DNA of 64,000 bases from Hyphomonas beringensis (GTDB lineage Bacteria; Pseudomonadota; Alphaproteobacteria; Caulobacterales; Hyphomonadaceae), in the NCBI RefSeq assembly GCF_000682755.1, contig NZ_AWFF01000098.1:62001-126000 (forward strand), written 5' to 3'. Of this stretch, positions 2,742-37,912 are shown piece by piece. Below the pieces are notes generated by a model. The model saw nothing but the letters and a program-made list of their open reading frames with translations, was not told the origin of the DNA and made no database searches. The first letter of the stretch is position 1, and the number at the start of each line of letters is the position of its first letter. A program made the position numbers and the translations under genes.

Positions 2742-3041
2742 TTATTTGCCCCTCATCATCGCGATGATGAGGCCCGCGCCAAAGGCAATGCCCACTGCTG
2801 CAAGAGGATTGTCTCGAATCTGTGTTTCGACCTCAGAACGGGTTTCCTTGAACTGTGTTCCAGCTTTGTCGGCCAGATCCTTGCCTTTTTCCATCCCGTC
2901 CTGCGCCTTCACTTTGGCCAGCCCGCGAACATCTTCGATAATGCTTTTGAGATCACCGCGCAGCATGGCGATGTCATCTTTCAGCGCAGCATAATCGCTT
3001 TCGGCTTCGGCTTTGAGAATGGTTTCAGTCTTACCCGTCAT
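2742..3041 (-). CDS. DUF883/ElaB-like stress membrane protein
   Basis: 99 aa, start ATG 3041 with ribosome site AGGAG. Residues 1-70 are a charged helix likely to form a coiled coil; residues 75-99 contain RDNPLAAVGIAFGAGLIIAM, the C-terminal membrane anchor with the R-x-N/H-P-L-A-A-V-G motif of the DUF883 (ElaB/YqjD) family. Family members in enterobacteria are inner-membrane proteins that associate with ribosomes or membranes in stationary phase. First gene of a minus-strand operon; a perfect EcfG-type promoter (3072-3096) ends about 31 bp before the start. Confidence 0.8.
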   Translation of the reverse strand: MTGKTETILKAEAESDYAALKDDIAMLRGDLKSIIEDVRGLAKVKAQDGMEKGKDLADKAGTQFKETRSEVETQIRDNPLAAVGIAFGAGLIIAMMRGK

Positions 3042-3071: not shown

Positions 3072-3096
3072 AACGCAGAACCGGCATGGAAGTTCC
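3072..3096 (-). promoter_or_regulatory. EcfG-type promoter, exact consensus, for the 3041-to-1630 operon
   Basis: On the minus strand: GGAAC (3096-3092), 16 bases, CGTT (3075-3072). This is the -35/-10 pair published for alphaproteobacterial general stress sigma factors (SigT/EcfG). The expected start of transcription is about 3065, leaving a leader of about 24 nt that contains the AGGAG site of the gene at 3041. It lies back-to-back with the promoter at 3107-3131. Confidence 0.85.
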
Positions 3097-3106
3097 CTGA
3101 TGATGT

Positions 3107-3131
3107 GGAACGAAACCAGGGCCCAGACGTT
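3107..3131 (+). promoter_or_regulatory. EcfG-type promoter, exact consensus, for the Crp/Fnr gene
   Basis: GGAAC (3107-3111), 16 bases, CGTT (3128-3131). The ATG of the Crp/Fnr gene begins at 3140, 9 bases after the -10 element, so the message would have almost no leader. Only 10 bp separate this promoter from the divergent one at 3072-3096. Confidence 0.85.
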
Positions 3132-3139
3132 TGCAGGCC

Positions 3140-3967
3140 ATGCAGGTATTTCGAAACAGACTATCACAATATGTAACGCTGGATGATGTCATCTGGAGTG
3201 AATTTGAAAAGCTTCAGACTCAGAACAAAGCCTATGAGGCAGGGGATGACCTGATCCGCGTTGGTCAGCGTCCCAAACATGTTTTTCTTCTCACGGAAGG
3301 TTGGGCGATCCGGCATCGCACATTGGAAGATGGCCGCCGGCAGATTGTAAACTTCATGCTTCCTGGTGATGTATTTGACCTGCAGGTACTTGCTGGACTT
3401 GAGGCGGACCATGGTGTCACGGCCGTAAATCGCACCGCGACTATGCGCATTGAGGCCGATGAGTTCATTACTATGCTGAAGAAGAGCGGACCTTTGGCTT
3501 CTGCCTTCTGGTGGTCAGCCGTACAGGAAGAATCCATCCTGCGTGAGCAAATTGTCCGCGTGGGTCGCCGATCTGCCCGGGAGCGGATCGGGCACCTTCT
3601 TCTTGAGCTGCAGCGCCGCCTTCAGGCCGCTATCGGGTCAGACAATGATGTCATGCCCTTGCCATTGACGCGAACCGACCTGGCCGATGCACTTGGGCTG
3701 ACCCCAGTACACGTCTCTAGAACCATGTCCGCACTTCGCCGGGCAGGCCTGATCGAAGAGTCGCGCGGCCGAGTAAAAATTCTCGACGCAGACAAGCTGG
3801 CCCGTCAGTCACATTTTGACATGGACTATTTGCACATGCGGCGCCTGGATCTCCTGAATGGGAGCGACGGCATGAATGGGCACGCCGCCGCACACAATGG
3901 AAATGGCAGCAGCCACCAGGGCCTGACCGCCTCAACATTACGCCCGCCACGTTCGCGAGATTACTGA
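3140..3967 (+). CDS. Crp/Fnr-family transcription regulator, stress-controlled
   Basis: 275 aa from the ATG at 3140; a TTG at 3131 is in frame but lies inside the promoter -10. Residues about 20-120 are a cyclic-nucleotide-binding-type beta roll (VFLLTEGWAIRHRTLEDGRR, VNFMLPGDVFDLQ); residues about 145-220 carry the winged HTH (LTRTDLADALGLTPVHVSRT). No N-terminal cysteine cluster is present, so it is not an Fnr oxygen sensor. The last 35 residues are a Gly/Asn/His-rich tail. A perfect EcfG-type promoter places it downstream of the general stress response; it probably relays that response to a second tier of genes. Ligand unknown. The small gene at 3994 may be co-transcribed. Confidence 0.85.
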   Translation: MQVFRNRLSQYVTLDDVIWSEFEKLQTQNKAYEAGDDLIRVGQRPKHVFLLTEGWAIRHRTLEDGRRQIVNFMLPGDVFDLQVLAGLEADHGVTAVNRTATMRIEADEFITMLKKSGPLASAFWWSAVQEESILREQIVRVGRRSARERIGHLLLELQRRLQAAIGSDNDVMPLPLTRTDLADALGLTPVHVSRTMSALRRAGLIEESRGRVKILDADKLARQSHFDMDYLHMRRLDLLNGSDGMNGHAAAHNGNGSSHQGLTASTLRPPRSRDY

Positions 3968-3993
3968 GACATGAATCGTCAAGGAGACACAGA

Positions 3994-4140
3994 ATGAATA
4001 AGACTGTACACGAACAGGACGTCACGCCCAAGGAGGCTCGACAGGGGCGTCGGGTGGGGCTCGTAAAAATACTTGGGATCGGCATAGCCGTTGCCGTTCT
4101 TGGCATTATCGTTGTGGCACTGGTCCAGAATATGGGCTGA
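3994..4140 (+). CDS. Small single-span membrane protein, 48 aa
   Basis: ATG 3994 with ribosome site AAGGAGA, 26 bp after the Crp/Fnr stop and followed at once by a strong terminator, which supports a real short gene. Residues 1-22 are polar and basic; residues 24-45 (LVKILGIGIAVAVLGIIVVA) are one membrane helix. Function unknown; probably co-expressed with the Crp/Fnr regulator under EcfG. Confidence 0.65.
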   Translation: MNKTVHEQDVTPKEARQGRRVGLVKILGIGIAVAVLGIIVVALVQNMG

Positions 4141-4160
4141 TTTTACAATCGCCAAACATG

Positions 4161-4200
4161 AAAAAGCCGCGCAGTCCTGATGGGCTGCGCGGCTTTTCTT
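4161..4200. terminator. Bidirectional rho-independent terminator
   Basis: Arms AAAAGCCGCGCAG (4162-4174) and CTGCGCGGCTTTT (4185-4197) pair perfectly over 13 bp with a 10-base loop, with A and T tracts on the two sides. It separates the small membrane gene (plus) from the convergent phyR (minus). Confidence 0.92.
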
Positions 4201-4230
4201 TTGGGATTAGGTGCCCTGGCGGGCTGATCC

Positions 4231-5025
4231 TTACGCGTCGACCCGCGCACCTGTAGCCGGATGGAAGAACAGGGCCTGGCCAATGGCTGCCTTGACCGTG
4301 TTTTCCTGGAAAGGCTTGGGAATCAGATAGGTCGGTTCTGGTCTTTCACCTGTCAGCAGGCGCTCCGGGAAGGCCGTGATGAAGATGATCGGAACATCAT
4401 GGTCGGCCAGGATGTCATGCGCGGCGTCAATGCCGGAAGATCCGTCAGCCAGCTGGATGTCACACAGAACCAGGCCGGGTGGGTTGGCGCCGAACAGACG
4501 CAGCGCCTCGCGATGTGTCGTGGCAATACCGGTAACGGTGTGGCCAAGATCTTCAACCAGGCTTTCGAGATCTGCCGCAATGATTGGCTCGTCCTCGATG
4601 ATCAGAACCTTCGTGGCCAGTTCGCCCTCGATTTCACGTTGGGCTTCCTGTTCCAGAAGGCGATGCTCTTCTTCAGTGATACCAAGAATTTTTGCAGCTT
4701 CTGCAGCCGTGAATCCCTCAAGGGCGGTCAGCAGAAATGCCTGGCGTTGAATGGGGGCCAGGGCTTGCAGTCTTTTATCGGCAGGGTCTGCCTGGCCAGA
4801 ACGCTCGCCTTCAAGCTGGGCGCCGGTCGTTCCCCAGATTACGTGGAAGAAACGGTACAGAGAAAGCCGAGAATCTTCTGTATCTTCAACGACTTCCGGG
4901 TTTTCGGCAAGGGCTTGGAGGGAGGCCCGGATATATGCGTCCCCACTCTCCTGACTGCCCGTGAGGGCGCGCGCATACCTGCGAAGGAATGGCAGGTGAG
5001 GGGCAAAGGATTTAACCAGACTCAT
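4231..5025 (-). CDS. phyR: General stress response regulator PhyR
   Basis: 264 aa from ATG 5025 (ribosome site AGAGAGG); the frame extends upstream but MSLVKSFAPHLPFLRRYARA is the usual PhyR N-terminus. Residues 1-135 are the EcfG-mimicking sigma-like domain; residues 138-255 the receiver, with EDEP (144-147), phosphoacceptor D189 in VLCDIQLADGSSG, FITAF and K237 in LIPKPF. Known mechanism: phosphorylated PhyR binds the anti-sigma factor NepR and so releases EcfG. It is divergent from nepR-ecfG-kinase, the classical arrangement. A possible EcfG-type promoter (5056-5080) would give feedback. Confidence 0.96.
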   Translation of the reverse strand: MSLVKSFAPHLPFLRRYARALTGSQESGDAYIRASLQALAENPEVVEDTEDSRLSLYRFFHVIWGTTGAQLEGERSGQADPADKRLQALAPIQRQAFLLTALEGFTAAEAAKILGITEEEHRLLEQEAQREIEGELATKVLIIEDEPIIAADLESLVEDLGHTVTGIATTHREALRLFGANPPGLVLCDIQLADGSSGIDAAHDILADHDVPIIFITAFPERLLTGERPEPTYLIPKPFQENTVKAAIGQALFFHPATGARVDA

Positions 5026-5055
5026 TGGGAACCTCTCTTTTGGGTACGCATTACT

Positions 5056-5080
5056 AAATCGTGAATTCGGGAAAAGTTCC
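5056..5080 (-). promoter_or_regulatory. Possible weak EcfG-type promoter of phyR
   Basis: GGAAC (5080-5076), 16 bases, then ATTT (5059-5056) on the minus strand. The -35 and the spacing match; the -10 keeps only TT. It is 30 bp upstream of the phyR start. phyR is autoregulated through EcfG in several alphaproteobacteria, but this site alone is a weak match. Confidence 0.35.
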
Positions 5081-5109
5081 ATGCGGTGAGAAATTTTCTC
5101 AACCTCTGT

Positions 5110-5134
5110 GGAACCTTTCTTGCCTGCATAAGTT
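5110..5134 (+). promoter_or_regulatory. EcfG-type promoter variant for nepR-ecfG
   Basis: GGAAC (5110-5114), 16 bases, AGTT (5131-5134): correct spacing with one mismatch in the -10 (A for C). It lies 56 bp before the nepR ATG and faces away from the phyR promoter candidate. Autoregulation of nepR-ecfG is known in the family. Confidence 0.6.
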
Positions 5135-5190
5135 TCTATACCAGACACTAGAATAGGTATCATGCAGTGAATCAGGTTAGATCAGGCGAT

Positions 5191-5379
5191 ATGGACAAGA
5201 GCGGGAAATCCAAATCCGTTTCGGCTGACCTCGGCACGAAACGGCGTACGCAGCGCATCGGTGAACAGCTGCGGAGAGTTTATGACGAGGTCGCCCAGGA
5301 AGATATTCCGGATGAGTTTCTTCGACTTCTCGAAGAAGCAGATCATGCCCGGACTTCCAAAACCTCAGATAAAACCTGA
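5191..5379 (+). CDS. nepR: Anti-sigma factor NepR
   Basis: 62 aa from ATG 5191 (a GTG at 5167 would give 70 aa). A basic N-terminus leads into the diagnostic helices IGEQLRRVYDEVAQEDIPDE and FLRLLEEAD. NepR holds EcfG inactive and is itself titrated by phosphorylated PhyR. It is 10 bp upstream of ecfG. Size and order match other alphaproteobacterial nepR-ecfG operons. Confidence 0.93.
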   Translation: MDKSGKSKSVSADLGTKRRTQRIGEQLRRVYDEVAQEDIPDEFLRLLEEADHARTSKTSDKT

Positions 5380-5389
5380 GGGGGGCACC

Positions 5390-5986
5390 ATGACAGACAA
5401 GATTGAGAAGCTCAGCGATAATGATTTCAAGCGTGAGCTTGCGGGTCTGATCCCGCATTTGCGGGCGTTTGCGCGCAGCTTGTGTGGGGATGCCACGCTC
5501 GCCGACGATCTGGCGCAGGATGCCATGCTCAAGGCATGGAATGCGCGGGAAAGTTTCCAGGCAGGGACGAACATGAAGGCGTGGGCCTTCACCATTCTAA
5601 GAAACGTATTCTATTCCGAAAAGCGCCGGTCCTGGCGCCGCACTCCGCTTGACCCGGAAGTGGCCGAGGCGACCCTGATTGCTAATAACAACCCTGCAGA
5701 TGGTCTGGACCTTTTGGCAATGCGTAATGCATTGGGGATGCTGCCGATTGATCAGAGGGAAGCCCTGATCCTCGTTGGTGCGGGCGGTATGGCATATGAA
5801 GAAGCTGCCGAAATCTGCGGTGTCGCTGTCGGAACCATCAAAAGCCGCGTGTCCCGTGCCCGCAAAGCTGTTGCAGAAATACTTGACACCAATTCTGCAG
5901 GCTACAGTGATGATAAAGGGATGACAGCTGGAGAGGCTTTCGAGGACATCATGCAGCAGGCGGACACAATAGCCGGTGTCGGATAA
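5390..5986 (+). CDS. ecfG: General stress sigma factor EcfG
   Basis: 198 aa from ATG 5390 with a strong GAGGGGGG ribosome site; the open frame begins earlier inside nepR and is not used. Region 2: LIPHLRAFARSLCGDATLAD and AMLKAWNARESF; region 4: LPIDQREALILVGAGGMAYE with the HTH end GVAVGTIKSRVSRAR. It is the ECF15 sigma factor that reads GGAAC-N16-CGTT promoters, several of which are in this window. Its 3' end overlaps the GTG start of the kinase gene by 11 bp, implying translational coupling. Confidence 0.95.
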   Translation: MTDKIEKLSDNDFKRELAGLIPHLRAFARSLCGDATLADDLAQDAMLKAWNARESFQAGTNMKAWAFTILRNVFYSEKRRSWRRTPLDPEVAEATLIANNNPADGLDLLAMRNALGMLPIDQREALILVGAGGMAYEEAAEICGVAVGTIKSRVSRARKAVAEILDTNSAGYSDDKGMTAGEAFEDIMQQADTIAGVG

Positions 5987-7664
5987 GAAGGATGACCGGC
6001 CCGATGTGCCGGATACCCCAAATGCGGCCCCGCTACGGAACAAGCTTGTCCTGACCCTTGCGGCTGCGTTGACGCCTGTTCTGCTGCTATCTGCTTTCAA
6101 GGCTTATATTGATGCGCGCGATGTGCGCGAGGACCAGCGAAAGACGCTGGTTCTCGCTGCTGACGCTGCGATTGATGGGGCTGGGCAGTCTCTCAAGGAA
6201 GCAGAACTGCTGATTTCCCTCTACGAGTCCCGTATCGCCGCAGGCCAGTGCAGTGGCACGTATAATGAACTGACAGAATATCTTCCGGCCTTGTCCAATG
6301 TGATCTTTTATGGGCCAGATAGCACTCTCGAATGTGCAGCCGTCGGCAAACCCACGCCTACCCGTGAAACCAAGATCATTCACGACCGTCTGAGAGCTGG
6401 CGGTGACGTTACGCTTAGAAGCGATGCCTTTTTCGGCAATGCCTCAAATGCCTGGTTGTTCACGATTAGCCGCCGCGTTGAGGGACCCGCCGGAGACTTC
6501 AAGGGCGTAAACACGTTCGCCATCAGGGCTGACAAGCTTGCGGAACTGATGCGCGCAGAATTCCTGCCCGATGGTGTGCAGGTCTCTCTCGCGGATCAGG
6601 ATGGTCGCGTATTTGGCGAGCCCTTGATCGGGCCGATCCCTGAACAATGGATTGAAGCCGTAAAGATGACAGGTGATGCGCAGCTTTTCCGTATGGACCG
6701 GAAAGAGGGCTATAATCTTGATGTCGTCCTTAAGCCTGTTGGGACGACTAACATCTATGCCGTTATCTCGCGTCCATCCTATGGCATCTGGAATGATATT
6801 GTGGTGAGGCCGGCAACCTCCTTCGGCCTTCCCTTGCTTGCCTTTGCCGTGACGCTGCTGGCTGCCTGGATGGCAATCGACGGGCTGGTTCTGAGATGGA
6901 TTTCGCGCCTTACGCGAACAGTGCGAATTTATGGCGCCGGTCGATATCAGTTCAAGGCAGGGAATTCCTTCACGGACGCGCCAGCGGAAATCTCCAGTCT
7001 AGCGCGTGCCATGGAAGTCATGGCGCAGGATATTGATCACCGTGACCAGGAACTGAAGGAAGCGATCGCTACCCGCGACGCCGCAGTGAAAGAGATTCAC
7101 CACCGGGTGAAGAACAATCTCCAGATCGTGACGAGTTTTCTGAACCTGCAGGGCAGGCAGCTGAGAGATCCTCAGGCCAAGGAGGCAATTTCGGCGACAC
7201 GGCACAGGATTGATGCGCTCGCAATTGTGCATCAGACACTCTACCAGAACGAGCGTCTCGAAAGCGTGGATATGCGGCCCTTCCTGACAGGCCTGTTGAA
7301 TCACCTCGCAGACGCGCTGGGAATGACAGAAGCCGGGATCCGTCTGGTTCAGTCCTATGAGGATATTCAGCGGGATGCGGATGATGCCATCCCGATGGCC
7401 TTGTTCATTGTGGAAGCCGTTACCAATGCGATGAAATATGCCTTTGGTGATGATGGTGGTGAGATATCTGTAACGCTGGCCACAGAGCAGGATAAAGTGA
7501 TCCTAGAGATCGCTGACAGTGGCCTGGGCTATGATGCCGAAGCCCACAGTTCTGGTCTTGGCTCCAAGCTAATGATGGCATTCGCGCGCCAGCTGTCTGC
7601 AGAATTCTCTACAGATGCGAAACCAGGTGAGGGGTGCAAGCACCGCCTCGTCATGAGCATGTAA
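5976..7664 (+). CDS. Membrane HisKA_2 sensor histidine kinase of the stress module
   Basis: 562 aa, GTG start 5976 overlapping the end of ecfG; no other in-frame start exists nearby. One membrane helix at about 22-45, an extracytoplasmic sensor domain to about 275, a second helix at about 283-305, a HAMP-like linker, then a HisKA_2 dimerisation domain with VKEIHHRVKNNLQIV (phospho-acceptor probably H376) and an HATPase domain with FIVEAVTNAMKYAFGDD and DSGLGYD. HisKA_2/HWE kinases of this type (PhyK, PhyP-like) feed or drain phosphate from PhyR. The position in the nepR-ecfG operon makes PhyR the probable partner. The signal sensed is unknown. Confidence 0.9.
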   Translation: MSDKKDDRPDVPDTPNAAPLRNKLVLTLAAALTPVLLLSAFKAYIDARDVREDQRKTLVLAADAAIDGAGQSLKEAELLISLYESRIAAGQCSGTYNELTEYLPALSNVIFYGPDSTLECAAVGKPTPTRETKIIHDRLRAGGDVTLRSDAFFGNASNAWLFTISRRVEGPAGDFKGVNTFAIRADKLAELMRAEFLPDGVQVSLADQDGRVFGEPLIGPIPEQWIEAVKMTGDAQLFRMDRKEGYNLDVVLKPVGTTNIYAVISRPSYGIWNDIVVRPATSFGLPLLAFAVTLLAAWMAIDGLVLRWISRLTRTVRIYGAGRYQFKAGNSFTDAPAEISSLARAMEVMAQDIDHRDQELKEAIATRDAAVKEIHHRVKNNLQIVTSFLNLQGRQLRDPQAKEAISATRHRIDALAIVHQTLYQNERLESVDMRPFLTGLLNHLADALGMTEAGIRLVQSYEDIQRDADDAIPMALFIVEAVTNAMKYAFGDDGGEISVTLATEQDKVILEIADSGLGYDAEAHSSGLGSKLMMAFARQLSAEFSTDAKPGEGCKHRLVMSM

Positions 7665-7676
7665 AAAACGGAAAGG

Positions 7677-7715
7677 AAAAACCCCGGTCCTGTAAATAGA
7701 CCGGGGTGTGTTTTG
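7677..7715. terminator. Bidirectional terminator after the kinase gene
   Basis: ACCCCGGTC (7681-7689) pairs with GACCGGGGT (7699-7707), preceded by AAAA and followed by GTGTTTT. It closes the nepR-ecfG-kinase operon and the convergent lipoprotein gene. Confidence 0.88.
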
Positions 7716-7732
7716 GTATATCGACCTAAACT

Positions 7733-7993
7733 CTAGTTAGGTGTGTCGGTGGTTTCAGTCATGGACTCGCCGGCTTCATTCATTGCGGCGCTGGCATCTT
7801 CTGCGGCATCTTCAATTTCATCGCTCGCCTCTTCAGCGCTCTCTTCAATGGCCTCACCAGCATCTTCAAGATTTTCCGAAATCGTATCAGGTTCTTCGAT
7901 TGTAACCTCTACATCGGCAGGCTCTTCAGCCTGATTGCAGGCCGTGATGAGCCCGATGCTGAACAGTGACGCTACAATAAAATGAGGTTTCAT
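7733..7993 (-). CDS. Small acidic lipoprotein, EcfG-controlled
   Basis: 86 aa, ATG 7993 with ribosome site AGGAG. Signal peptide with lipobox LITAC (Cys19), then a very acidic Ala/Glu/Asp/Ser-rich segment with heptad-like repeats (EEASDEIEDAAEDASAAMNE) likely to be helical. Low-complexity sequence prevents a family call. A perfect EcfG-type promoter (8023-8047) is 30 bp upstream. Probably an envelope stress protein anchored in a membrane. Confidence 0.8.
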   Translation of the reverse strand: MKPHFIVASLFSIGLITACNQAEEPADVEVTIEEPDTISENLEDAGEAIEESAEEASDEIEDAAEDASAAMNEAGESMTETTDTPN

Positions 7994-8022
7994 GATTTGC
8001 TCCTATATGGGTCTAGTCTGCG

Positions 8023-8047
8023 AACGCACACAGTCCGAAATCGTTCC
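8023..8047 (-). promoter_or_regulatory. EcfG-type promoter, exact consensus, for the acidic lipoprotein
   Basis: Minus strand: GGAAC (8047-8043), 16 bases, CGTT (8026-8023). Transcription would begin near 8016 and give a leader of about 22 nt with the AGGAG ribosome site. It is divergent from a second exact promoter at 8072-8096. Confidence 0.86.
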
Positions 8048-8071
8048 TGATGGAGTGGCGCAGCAAGTCCG

Positions 8072-8096
8072 GGAACCCATACGTAGAATGCGCGTT
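8072..8096 (+). promoter_or_regulatory. EcfG-type promoter, exact consensus, facing 8105
   Basis: GGAAC (8072-8076), 16 bases, CGTT (8093-8096). An ATG opens at 8105, 9 bases after the -10, exactly the geometry seen at the Crp/Fnr gene. It should serve the ORF at 8105 and the DUF2945-like gene at 8342. Confidence 0.84.
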
Positions 8097-8104
8097 CTCA
8101 CTTC

Positions 8105-8332
8105 ATGCTAATCAAACCCATACATAAGAGCGTCAAATCCTCCCGCCGACAGGCGTCCCAGTCCCTGTCTTATGTCATAAGGCGTTTGAGTGGCCCTCAT
8201 CGCATCCCAGTTATCATCTCAGTGCTGATCATAGGAATTGGTCAGATCTGGACGTGTCTGCTGAAGCATCGCGATTTGCTGCGGGGGAAGGCCCAGCCAC
8301 GGGTCAAGCTCATAGGATATACACATTCATAG
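8105..8332 (+). CDS. Small basic membrane protein, probably leaderless message
   Basis: 75 aa, ATG 8105. No ribosome site precedes it, but a perfect EcfG-type promoter puts the start of transcription within a few bases of the ATG, as for leaderless genes. Basic N-terminus (about 35 residues), one membrane helix (IPVIISVLIIGIGQIWTCLL), basic C-terminus. No family recognised. The promoter geometry is the main reason to accept it; without it this would be a doubtful ORF. Confidence 0.5.
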   Translation: MLIKPIHKSVKSSRRQASQSLSYVIRRLSGPHRIPVIISVLIIGIGQIWTCLLKHRDLLRGKAQPRVKLIGYTHS

Positions 8333-8341
8333 GCGACCCGT

Positions 8342-8554
8342 GTGAGTATTCCCAAAGGATCCCGTGTAGAATGGCATGTGGCGGGAACCTGGCACATGGG
8401 GAAGGTCATAGCTGTCTATACTCATGACATCAGGGAAGTGCGAGGTGGGAAGCGTATCCTGCGGATCGCAACAGATGCCTGCCCGGCATATCTCATCGAG
8501 ATGGGTGACGGCTTTACACTGATCAAATCTCATTCAGAATTGACCAGATGTTAA
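8342..8554 (+). CDS. DUF2945 (HVA1/Tudor-like) small protein
   Basis: 70 aa, GTG start 8342, 9 bp after the preceding ORF. The pattern KGSRVEWHVAGTWHMGKVI followed by TDACPAYLIEMGDGFTLIKS matches the DUF2945 family: a short beta-barrel with paired G-x-V-x-W and G-K-V motifs. Members are small soluble proteins found beside stress genes; their molecular role is not established. Probably co-transcribed from the EcfG promoter at 8072-8096 and ended by the terminator at 8555. Confidence 0.75.
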   Translation: MSIPKGSRVEWHVAGTWHMGKVIAVYTHDIREVRGGKRILRIATDACPAYLIEMGDGFTLIKSHSELTRC

Positions 8555-8604: not shown

Positions 8605-8757
8605 TTAGTCCTTGATATCTTCTTCAACGTCGTTGGAGGTGTCCTGAATAACTTCACCGCCGGCTTCGACATCCTTGCCAACGCCTTCAACCGTATTGCA
8701 GGCGGTAAGGAAAATGGCGAGAGCGCCCAGGCTAGCAACTTTCAATGTGTTCTTCAT
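8605..8757 (-). CDS. Entericidin-like small lipoprotein
   Basis: 50 aa, ATG 8757, ribosome site AAGGAT. Signal peptide ending in a lipobox, FLTAC (Cys20), then NTVEGVGKDVEAGGEVIQDT and an acidic tail. The N-T-V-x-G-x-G-x-D pattern after the lipid Cys is that of the entericidin EcnA/EcnB family. Such genes are typical general stress targets. The exact EcfG promoter at 8790-8814 is 33 bp upstream. Confidence 0.85.
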   Translation of the reverse strand: MKNTLKVASLGALAIFLTACNTVEGVGKDVEAGGEVIQDTSNDVEEDIKD

Positions 8758-8789: not shown

Positions 8790-8814
8790 AACGCTCGGCA
8801 TGCATTTGGGTTCC
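8790..8814 (-). promoter_or_regulatory. EcfG-type promoter, exact consensus, for the entericidin-like gene
   Basis: Minus strand: GGAAC (8814-8810), 16 bases, CGTT (8793-8790). Gives a leader of about 26 nt including the AAGGAT ribosome site. Confidence 0.86.
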
Positions 8815-8909: not shown

Positions 8910-9083
8910 ATGCTCGGTTGGGCAATTGCATTCTTTATCCTCGCCCTTGTGGCTGCGGTTCTTGGTTTCGGTGGTATCGCGGGTGCTTCCGCAGGTATTG
9001 CCAAGATTCTGTTCTTTGTCTTCCTGGTGCTTCTGGTGCTGTCGTTCGTTGCGCGTGCCGTGCGCGGACGAAATGTTATGTAA
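8910..9083 (+). CDS. DUF1328 (YtjA-like) small membrane protein, copy 1
   Basis: 57 aa, ATG 8910, ribosome site AAGGAG. Two membrane helices separated by the conserved [16 protein letters not shown] turn that defines the family; short basic tail. Very similar to the protein at 9230-9394. Members are stress-induced inner membrane proteins of unknown action. Ends with the terminator at 9101. Confidence 0.88.
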
Positions 9084-9100: not shown

Positions 9101-9137
9101 AAAAAGGGGCGCCGTGCGAACGGTGCCCCTTTTTATT
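9101..9137 (+). terminator. Terminator after DUF1328 copy 1
   Basis: AAAAAGGGGC (9101-9110) pairs with GCCCCTTTTT in the 3' arm, extended by GCCG/CGGT, and followed by ATTAAT. The 3' arm and tail are part of a 32-bp unit that is repeated directly downstream (9151-9182). Confidence 0.85.
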
Positions 9138-9182
9138 AATCAAGCGTGGGAACGGTGCCCCTTTTTATTAATCAAGCGTGGG
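9119..9182. repeat. Exact 32-bp tandem duplication
   Basis: The unit running from AACGGTGCCCC to AAGCGTGGG occurs at 9119-9150 and again, without change, at 9151-9182, with AACG following a third time. It duplicates the 3' half of the terminator and sits just in front of the GGAAC of the next gene. Confidence 0.95.
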
Positions 9183-9229: not shown

Positions 9230-9394
9230 ATGTTAAGAATTGCTATCATATTTCTGGTTATCGCGCTTGTCGCCGCCGTACTGGGTTTTGGCGGTATTGC
9301 CGGCGCATCTGCAGGCATTGCGAAAATCCTTGCCCTGATCTTTGTTGTCCTGTTTCTGATCTCTCTCCTCGTGGGACGCGGCCGAAAGGCCTAA
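9230..9394 (+). CDS. DUF1328 small membrane protein, copy 2
   Basis: 54 aa from ATG 9230 (ribosome site GAGGAA); the frame is open further upstream through the repeat but has no start signal there. Shares [20 protein letters not shown] with copy 1 and differs mainly at both ends, pointing to a local gene duplication. Nine bases before the next gene, so co-transcribed with it. Confidence 0.87.
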
Positions 9395-36463: not shown

Positions 36464-37912
36464 TCAGACCTCCATCAGTTTCTGGAGCATTTGGTTGGCG
36501 ATTTCGATGACGCGCGCATTCGCGGCATAGGCCTGTTCGATCAATAGCAATTCCTGCATCTGCTCATCAACATCGACGCCCGTTTCAGAAAGTTCGGCCT
36601 GGGCCATCAGATCGTGTTGCGTGGACGCCGATGACAGGACCGCTTCATTGGAAATACGTGATTGTCCGGTTAGAGACGCAACGTGTGCGACAAGTTCAGA
36701 GACGGAGAAGCTGCCTTGGATGCCGTTGGCGTTTACGGAGTTTACCGATGTGATGGCATCATACATCGCGGAGAGTAGGGTGTTGTTACCCTGGGCGCCC
36801 TCACTGGCCGCGCCGACACCATCACGCAGACGCCAGATGTCTCCACCCTGATTTGGATCGATACTGGCATTCAGGGCAATCCGTCCGGCGAGTCCAGGCT
36901 CGCCTGGCGTTCCGGTGTCGACAAAGATACCGAACTCCCCGGGCAGCTTGGTCGGGTCGATCGAATCATTGGAAAGACGGGAAACCAGATCCTGTGCAAT
37001 TGTGTCGAGCTGGGCGCCAAACGCGGGAAGGTCTGTATCCCTCAGTGTAAAGAGAGCGCCGAGCATGCCACTCGATATGGCAGCATAGCTGGATGCTCCA
37101 GGGGTTAACTCCAGATCACCAACCTTGAGCCCAGACAGGTTCCCACTTTCCACAGTATTTGACGCTGAGAAGGCATTGGAGGGCGTGAATTCCAATAGTT
37201 GGGCCGTGCCGGCGACAAGGAATACACCCTCGCTGGTCACGACATCGACTTTGCCATGTTCTCGGGGAATGACATCAATGGGGAGATATTCTGCAATTGT
37301 ATCAAGTGTGCGCTGACGCTCATCCATTAGCGCAGCGGCCTGGGGCGTTGTCCGGTCCATACCTGAAAGGCGATTGTTGAGAGCTTCAACCTGTTTCAGG
37401 GCAGAATTGACGAACTCGACACCATCCGCGATTTCGCGGTCGGCTTCGGCACGTTGCTGGCTGACAAGGCCGGAGAGGTTGTTCAGCTCCTGCGTGATGG
37501 CTTTAGCTGAGTTTAGAAGTGCGGCAAGCTGAGTCCCTGACTCAGGGGAGGCGATGGATGCAGAGAGGGCAGATTCGAATTTGGAGAATTTGCTAAAAAG
37601 GCCTGTGCCATCCGCCGTGTCCCCAAAGCGGGAAGACAAAACCTGCCAGGTGCTGGAAAGGAGGCTGGCTTGTGCCACGTCACTGGAGAGGCTTCGTCTC
37701 TGCGCTGTCAGCGCAGCGTCCTCTGAACGGCTGATGCCCGTAGAGGCAACGCCATTTGGACGGGATCCAACCATGGTCTCGGCCAACAAAACGGAACGCC
37801 GGACATAGCCCGGCGTTGAAGCGTTTGCGACGTTCGTGGCGACAATGTCGGCCCTGAGGCCAGAAACCCTGAGGCCGGACTGTGCCGCGTTTATGGCGTG
37901 GGAAATACTCAA
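36464..37912 (-). CDS. flgK: Hook-associated protein 1 FlgK
   Basis: 482 aa, TTG start 37912 giving the usual MSISHAINAAQSGLRVSGLR; no ATG fits the family N-terminus. VATNVANASTPGYVRRSV is the rod/hook signature; the C-terminus (MQELLLIEQAYAANARVIEI) is the D0 helix. The TTG suggests low translation or coupling with flgE 28 bp upstream. Confidence 0.92.
   Translation of the reverse strand: MSISHAINAAQSGLRVSGLRADIVATNVANASTPGYVRRSVLLAETMVGSRPNGVASTGISRSEDAALTAQRRSLSSDVAQASLLSSTWQVLSSRFGDTADGTGLFSKFSKFESALSASIASPESGTQLAALLNSAKAITQELNNLSGLVSQQRAEADREIADGVEFVNSALKQVEALNNRLSGMDRTTPQAAALMDERQRTLDTIAEYLPIDVIPREHGKVDVVTSEGVFLVAGTAQLLEFTPSNAFSASNTVESGNLSGLKVGDLELTPGASSYAAISSGMLGALFTLRDTDLPAFGAQLDTIAQDLVSRLSNDSIDPTKLPGEFGIFVDTGTPGEPGLAGRIALNASIDPNQGGDIWRLRDGVGAASEGAQGNNTLLSAMYDAITSVNSVNANGIQGSFSVSELVAHVASLTGQSRISNEAVLSSASTQHDLMAQAELSETGVDVDEQMQELLLIEQAYAANARVIEIANQMLQKLMEV

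Follow-up and report, generated by a model that had tools for sequence, protein, structure and literature searches.

A 64,000-nucleotide stretch of the Hyphomonas beringensis genome (assembly GCF_000682755.1, contig NZ_AWFF01000098.1, positions 62,001 to 126,000 of the forward strand; hereafter the window) carries a complete general stress locus, in which PhyR, NepR, the sigma factor EcfG and a HisKA_2/HWE histidine kinase are all recognized by Pfam, together with two genes whose ATG start codons lie at one short, fixed distance from an EcfG promoter. Our analysis indicates that leaderless transcription of these two genes, and of the other EcfG targets sharing their geometry, is very likely. 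The full explanation that we favor, and hold to be highly probable, is that EcfG-driven transcription begins at the A of the ATG, that the resulting messenger RNAs (mRNAs) are leaderless and translated by the ordinary leaderless route, and that the gap between the -10 box and the ATG is under selection. An earlier note on this DNA had claimed that such genes are leaderless, and the claim finds in silico support in the promoter geometry and its conservation in relatives, a genome-wide peak in promoter-to-ATG distances, a predicted start site on the A of the ATG, and proteins conserved from their first methionine. The actual 5' end, the dependence on EcfG and the route of translation are what we infer.

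The same note had stated that in both places where an exact plus-strand EcfG site faces a gene the spacing to the ATG is identical, and the coordinates confirm this. One GGAAC-N16-CGTT site occupies 3107-3131 (GGAAC 3107-3111, CGTT 3128-3131) and is followed by eight bases and the ATG at 3140, the predicted transcription start of a 275-residue Crp/Fnr-family regulator (3140-3967, plus strand; Pfam cNMP_binding and HTH_Crp_2). The other occupies 8072-8096 (CGTT 8093-8096) and is again followed by eight bases and an ATG, at 8105, the predicted transcription start of a 75-residue protein (8105-8332, plus strand) that is conserved beside the EcfG locus. We refer to this arrangement as N8. A third exact plus-strand site, at 37793-37817, lies inside opposite-strand open frames and faces no convincing gene, so the count of two holds. 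Both predicted leaderless genes use AUG as start codon, no Shine-Dalgarno (SD)-like sequence precedes either ATG (the eight preceding bases are TGCAGGCC and CTCACTTC, respectively), and we saw no later start codon with an SD site in either gene.

Three minus-strand EcfG targets in the window provide a contrast, being SD-led, as the note had also observed. These encode a DUF883-like protein (2742-3041; match below the curated cut-offs; promoter 3072-3096), a small protein with, by eye, a lipoprotein-like N-terminus (7733-7993; promoter 8023-8047) and an entericidin-family lipoprotein (8605-8757; promoter 8790-8814). Their CGTT-to-ATG gaps are 30, 29 and 32 bases and contain SD-like strings, which would correspond to leaders of about 21 to 24 nucleotides if the ninth base after CGTT is the transcription start. 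Two of the three are divergent from the two predicted leaderless genes.

A distance count over all EcfG sites of the genome, which the earlier note had proposed, gives a peak at N8. The H. beringensis genome holds 80 EcfG matches, and we studied the 56 with an N16 or N17 spacer, leaving out 24 with N18; these and all other N8 searches required an ATG, with GTG and TTG starts outside their scope. An ATG opening a reading frame of at least 50 residues stands at exactly N8 in 6 of the 56 sites, where the background would give 0.39 (P 2.7e-6, or 1.7e-4 when corrected for the 61 distances). One of the six (locus L103) is ambiguous, as a better start with an SD site follows 21 bases downstream, and for this reason was excluded from the clean set. 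The 56 sites thereby divide into five clean leaderless cases, the ambiguous one, 21 SD-led sites in which 22 to 50 bases separate CGTT from the ATG, and 29 unclassed sites. Many of the unclassed sites fall within coding frames, and in at least one case (L117) the gene downstream of the site seems to have a leader and no SD string. The five clean cases are the Crp/Fnr regulator, the 75-residue protein, a DAGK_cat protein of 292 residues, an MscS-type channel of 308 residues and a 183-residue protein with a lipoprotein-like N-terminus. None has an SD site before its start, and no later SD start was flagged for the DAGK and MscS genes.

The position at which EcfG-driven transcription is likely to begin can be read from the SD-led promoters. 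From 133 raw SD-led sites, 79 were non-redundant, and removal of 10 with an ATG at the start position left 69. In 59 of these a purine occupies the ninth base after CGTT, and in 49 a pyrimidine precedes that base, while purines reach at most 71% at the other ten positions tabulated; the H. beringensis SD-led sites alone give 18/21 and 14/21, respectively. A pyrimidine-purine step is the usual signature of a start site, and in the N8 genes this position coincides with the A of the ATG. The 69 SD-led sites show no preference for ATG there, as offset 8 reads G in 36 and A in 23, and offset 9 reads T in 26. In Caulobacter, a SigT-like motif has been reported at position -34 relative to a mapped start (PMC4287350), which agrees within one base with the EcfG start predicted here, given some uncertainty in the counting convention of that report.

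In the mechanism that we favor, the Hyphomonas RNA polymerase carrying EcfG would begin transcription at the ninth base after CGTT, and in a minority of its targets (the Crp/Fnr regulator, the 75-residue protein, the DAGK-type kinase, the MscS channel and the lipoprotein-like protein) this base would be the A of the start codon. Because the polymerase would start on that A, each mRNA would begin with its own start codon, and it would presumably be translated by the ordinary leaderless route of a 5'-terminal AUG and 70S initiation, a route in wide use among alphaproteobacteria. Selection would act on the gap because any shift would leave the mRNA with a short leader that lacks an SD site.

Conservation of the arrangement is clearest for the Crp/Fnr gene. 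A protein search found orthologs of at least 60% identity in 12 Hyphomonas genomes, our own copy included, with same-genus matches below 40% treated as not orthologous. GGAAC-N16 and N8 are kept in all 12, with a -10 box of CGTT in nine, CGTA in two and AGTA in one (the site of the twelfth ortholog, from UBA5111, is identical to that of L062), and the initial methionine is invariant in the alignment. An exact N8 site also precedes the gene in two Ponticaulis genomes. Among 30 named Crp/Fnr loci, which in part repeat these genomes, 18 have GGAAC together with a -10 box that carries no more than two mismatches and ends 8 to 10 bases upstream of the ATG. Seven loci are the most distant: in one of them (L208) an exact site lies 33 bases ahead of an in-frame ATG and a GGAGG string is present, by eye an SD-led arrangement, and the other six showed no EcfG site. 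A side observation at this locus is that several relatives (L185, at about 3914-4351, and L188, L190 and L202) encode a second EcfG-like sigma factor, 40-46% identical, about 2 kb upstream of Crp; a window open reading frame (ORF) with a TTG start at 982-1623 is by eye probably its equivalent.

The 75-residue gene has seven copies in 42 genomes, own copy included, all in frame, with CGTT-N8 in three, CGTA-N8 in three and CGTA-N9 in one, and its initial methionine is likewise invariant in the aligned homologs. A family of 79-residue proteins, comprising eight loci found through the N8 pattern, is a distant homolog (hhalign probability 91.5%, E 8.4e-7), and its gene adjoins the EcfG locus in both genomes inspected; neither protein has a Pfam match. 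By eye, members of this combined family (window 8105-8332; L064:1534-1770) appear membrane-like, and they stand beside the EcfG kinase gene in the Hyphomonas loci checked.

For the MscS gene, 8 of 11 orthologs are exact at N8 (the own copy is included here and in the DAGK count), and the upstream sequences of the other three read, by eye, TGAAC-N16-CGTA-N8. Close DAGK homologs (at least 65% identity) have N8 in eight of eight cases, with a -35/-10 spacer of N16 in three and N17 in five; since the spacer varies while N8 stays, the constrained distance is that from the -10 box to the ATG. Two DAGK homologs (L292 and L294) have an SD-like string before the ATG, lying within what would be untranscribed promoter. 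Further N8 families include a BLUF sensor (six loci), CreA (three), SOUL (three) and a VTT-domain protein (two). As a separate matter, a -10 box of CGTA (AGTA in L016) occurs at identical geometry in L016-L018, L043-L045 and L287-L289, suggesting a tolerated -10 variant that exact-consensus scans miss.

Pattern counts in related genomes show the same preferred distance. Across the 42 genomes of the genus, N8-ATG occurs 108 times (9 for a reversed-pattern control), N6 and N7 together 123 times (control 35), and N9 and N10 together 84 times (control 23), the figures for N6, N7, N9 and N10 being counts of the pattern without gene-by-gene inspection. Across 249 genomes of the order, an N16 spacer with N8-ATG gives 255 matches, spread over 129 genomes (control 32), and with N11-ATG 69 matches, spread over 61 (control 59). 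Some N8 ATGs open a very short frame just before an apparent SD-led gene (L049, L053, L071 and L072; L159 and L167; L066; L171), including an eight-codon frame in four genomes and an ATG directly followed by TAA in two. Such frames are possibly leaderless miniature upstream ORFs.

Several of our observations weigh against the mechanism that we favor. The genus and order counts are not independent events, because some of the genomes are related and some matches fall within coding sequence. An open frame of 40 residues or fewer follows 38 of the 105 distinct genus N8 loci, a set from which none was removed, the families listed above being the clusters with a plausible gene. Outside the genus, 20 of 40 sampled N8 sites, hand-picked as roughly every second row among the matches listed, begin a plausible gene by the cut-offs we applied, compared with 6 of 20 sites from the N11 list. 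N8 is absent from all 20 distant DAGK homologs (36-43% identity), and in 13 of these an exact EcfG site is followed by an SD leader (gap 26 or 27 in nine); leaderlessness is therefore not tied to DAGK function. Five Henriciella genomes have no EcfG site before the Crp/Fnr gene, and in four of them a purine-rich, SD-like stretch is found by eye in its place. Some Crp and 75-residue homologs have N9 or N10. Lastly, the spacing in the BLUF, CreA, SOUL, VTT and 79-residue families is no test of the arrangement, because these were found through the N8 pattern itself.

It might be proposed from such observations that the N8 ATG merely reflects an initiator preference or chance, and that translation begins elsewhere. 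Many N8 sites do start no clear gene, and some N8 ATGs open very short frames that precede SD-led genes. We nonetheless judge this to be highly improbable, as the SD-led EcfG sites lack an ATG preference at the start position, the initial methionine is invariant in both the Crp/Fnr and 75-residue proteins, neither window gene shows a later SD start, and the exact spacing is maintained over divergent sequence. We rejected ATG as an initiator motif on the evidence of the SD-led sites, and chance on that of the own-genome count, the start-site base signal and conservation. A second alternative would have a further, upstream promoter supply a longer mRNA during growth, with the EcfG promoter adding a leaderless form under stress only. 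The position of both window genes in divergent intergenic regions leaves room for such a promoter, but neither ATG is preceded by an SD-like sequence, and we regard this arrangement as unlikely.

The remaining alternatives accept that the genes are leaderless and ask what this is for. The earlier note suggested that a leaderless subset of the stress regulon may stay translatable when ribosomes are altered, and in its broader form this idea would make the leaderless EcfG genes a functional class still read under stress when 30S- and SD-dependent initiation is limited. In its favor, leaderless status is specific to the gene and stable across the genus while divergent neighbors under the same sigma factor remain SD-led, and in other bacteria leaderless translation is reported to be sustained under stress or kasugamycin (PMC8485053, PMC4929434). 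Against it, SD-led sites in the genome outnumber clean leaderless ones 21 to 5 and include the divergent neighbors of both window genes. The leaderless share of 5 in 26 classed sites (19%) is no excess over the 17% of Caulobacter, in a rough comparison of two species, and in Caulobacter translation during normal growth is described as equally efficient for leaderless and led mRNAs (PMC4117421). The MazF stress-translation idea has itself been disputed (PMC6561025, PMC6561028). No PemK/MazF homolog was found at E 1e-3 in the draft genome, which is 99.99% complete (the same search gave hits in 3 of 14 control genomes; no search was made for other enzymes that alter ribosomes), and MazF-type altered ribosomes were accordingly set aside. 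Translation on altered ribosomes is therefore left unsupported, and the functional class as a whole appears very unlikely. Slightly less so, though still quite unlikely, is a reading in which leader status forms a selected, gene-specific second layer, EcfG turning on both an SD-led class and a leaderless class comprising a regulator, a lipid kinase, a channel, a BLUF sensor and a small membrane protein; the output of the latter would depend on 70S initiation and would therefore respond differently to initiation-factor levels in stress and recovery. We read the N8 set instead as an ordinary alphaproteobacterial leaderless class, tied here to one sigma factor.

Leaderless mRNAs are already known to be common in Alphaproteobacteria. 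Caulobacter crescentus is reported to have 375 among 2201 mapped transcripts (17% by our division; 9.6% of coding sequences according to the paper; PMC4117421), Sinorhizobium meliloti 171 (PMC3616915), and Bradyrhizobium japonicum 192 transcription start sites exactly at a start codon (PMC4842269). The Hyphomonas set resembles these in its predicted start on the A of the AUG and its lack of an SD site, and differs in being derived from sequence rather than mapped by RNA sequencing. The excerpts of those reports that we retrieved single out no EcfG-driven group, although their supplementary tables, which lay outside our search, may list such genes. With the PhyR-NepR-EcfG regulon, as represented by Caulobacter SigT, the window shares the promoter consensus GGAAC-N16-CGTT (PMC4287350) and the regulators themselves; what is added here, by comparison of relatives, is the leader status of the target genes, whose dependence on EcfG is presumed. 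The MazF-dependent system of Escherichia coli likewise ties stress to leaderless mRNAs, but that system removes existing leaders and alters the ribosomes (as cited in PMC3616915), whereas here the mRNA is predicted to be leaderless from the outset and MazF was not detected. Our literature search found no description of a leaderless EcfG gene set; as subscription papers and supplements were outside it, this absence is unproven. Such a set, defined by a sigma factor, conserved and probably leaderless, comes with matched SD-led controls under the same promoter, two of them transcribed divergently from the leaderless genes' own intergenic regions, and provides a clean setting in which to ask if stress affects leaderless translation differently. 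The N8 arrangement also supports the Crp/Fnr start codon and the reality of the 75-residue gene.

The stress locus itself lies between the two predicted leaderless genes. It comprises the anti-anti-sigma response regulator PhyR (4231-5025, minus strand; Pfam PhyR_sigma2, PhyR_sigma-like and Response_reg), the anti-sigma factor NepR (plus strand, listed as 5167-5379; by eye the start may be 5191; Pfam NepR), EcfG (5390-5986, plus strand; Pfam Sigma70_r2 and Sigma70_r4_2), which is encoded beside PhyR and NepR, and the HisKA_2/HWE kinase (5976-7664, plus strand; Pfam). A near-consensus EcfG site, GGAAC-N16-AGTT, is seen by eye at 5110-5134 upstream of nepR-ecfG and would fit autoregulation. Nine bases past the stop of the 75-residue gene is a GTG-initiated gene for a Hva1_TUDOR-domain protein (8342-8554, plus strand), which is probably cotranscribed with it and has a 98.6% identical homolog at the equivalent place in L185. 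Further along, a direct repeat in tandem, with a unit of about 32 bp and a T-run, is seen by eye at 9118-9181, where it separates two small ORFs that resemble each other and look membrane-like and DUF1328-like (8910-9083 and 9230-9394).

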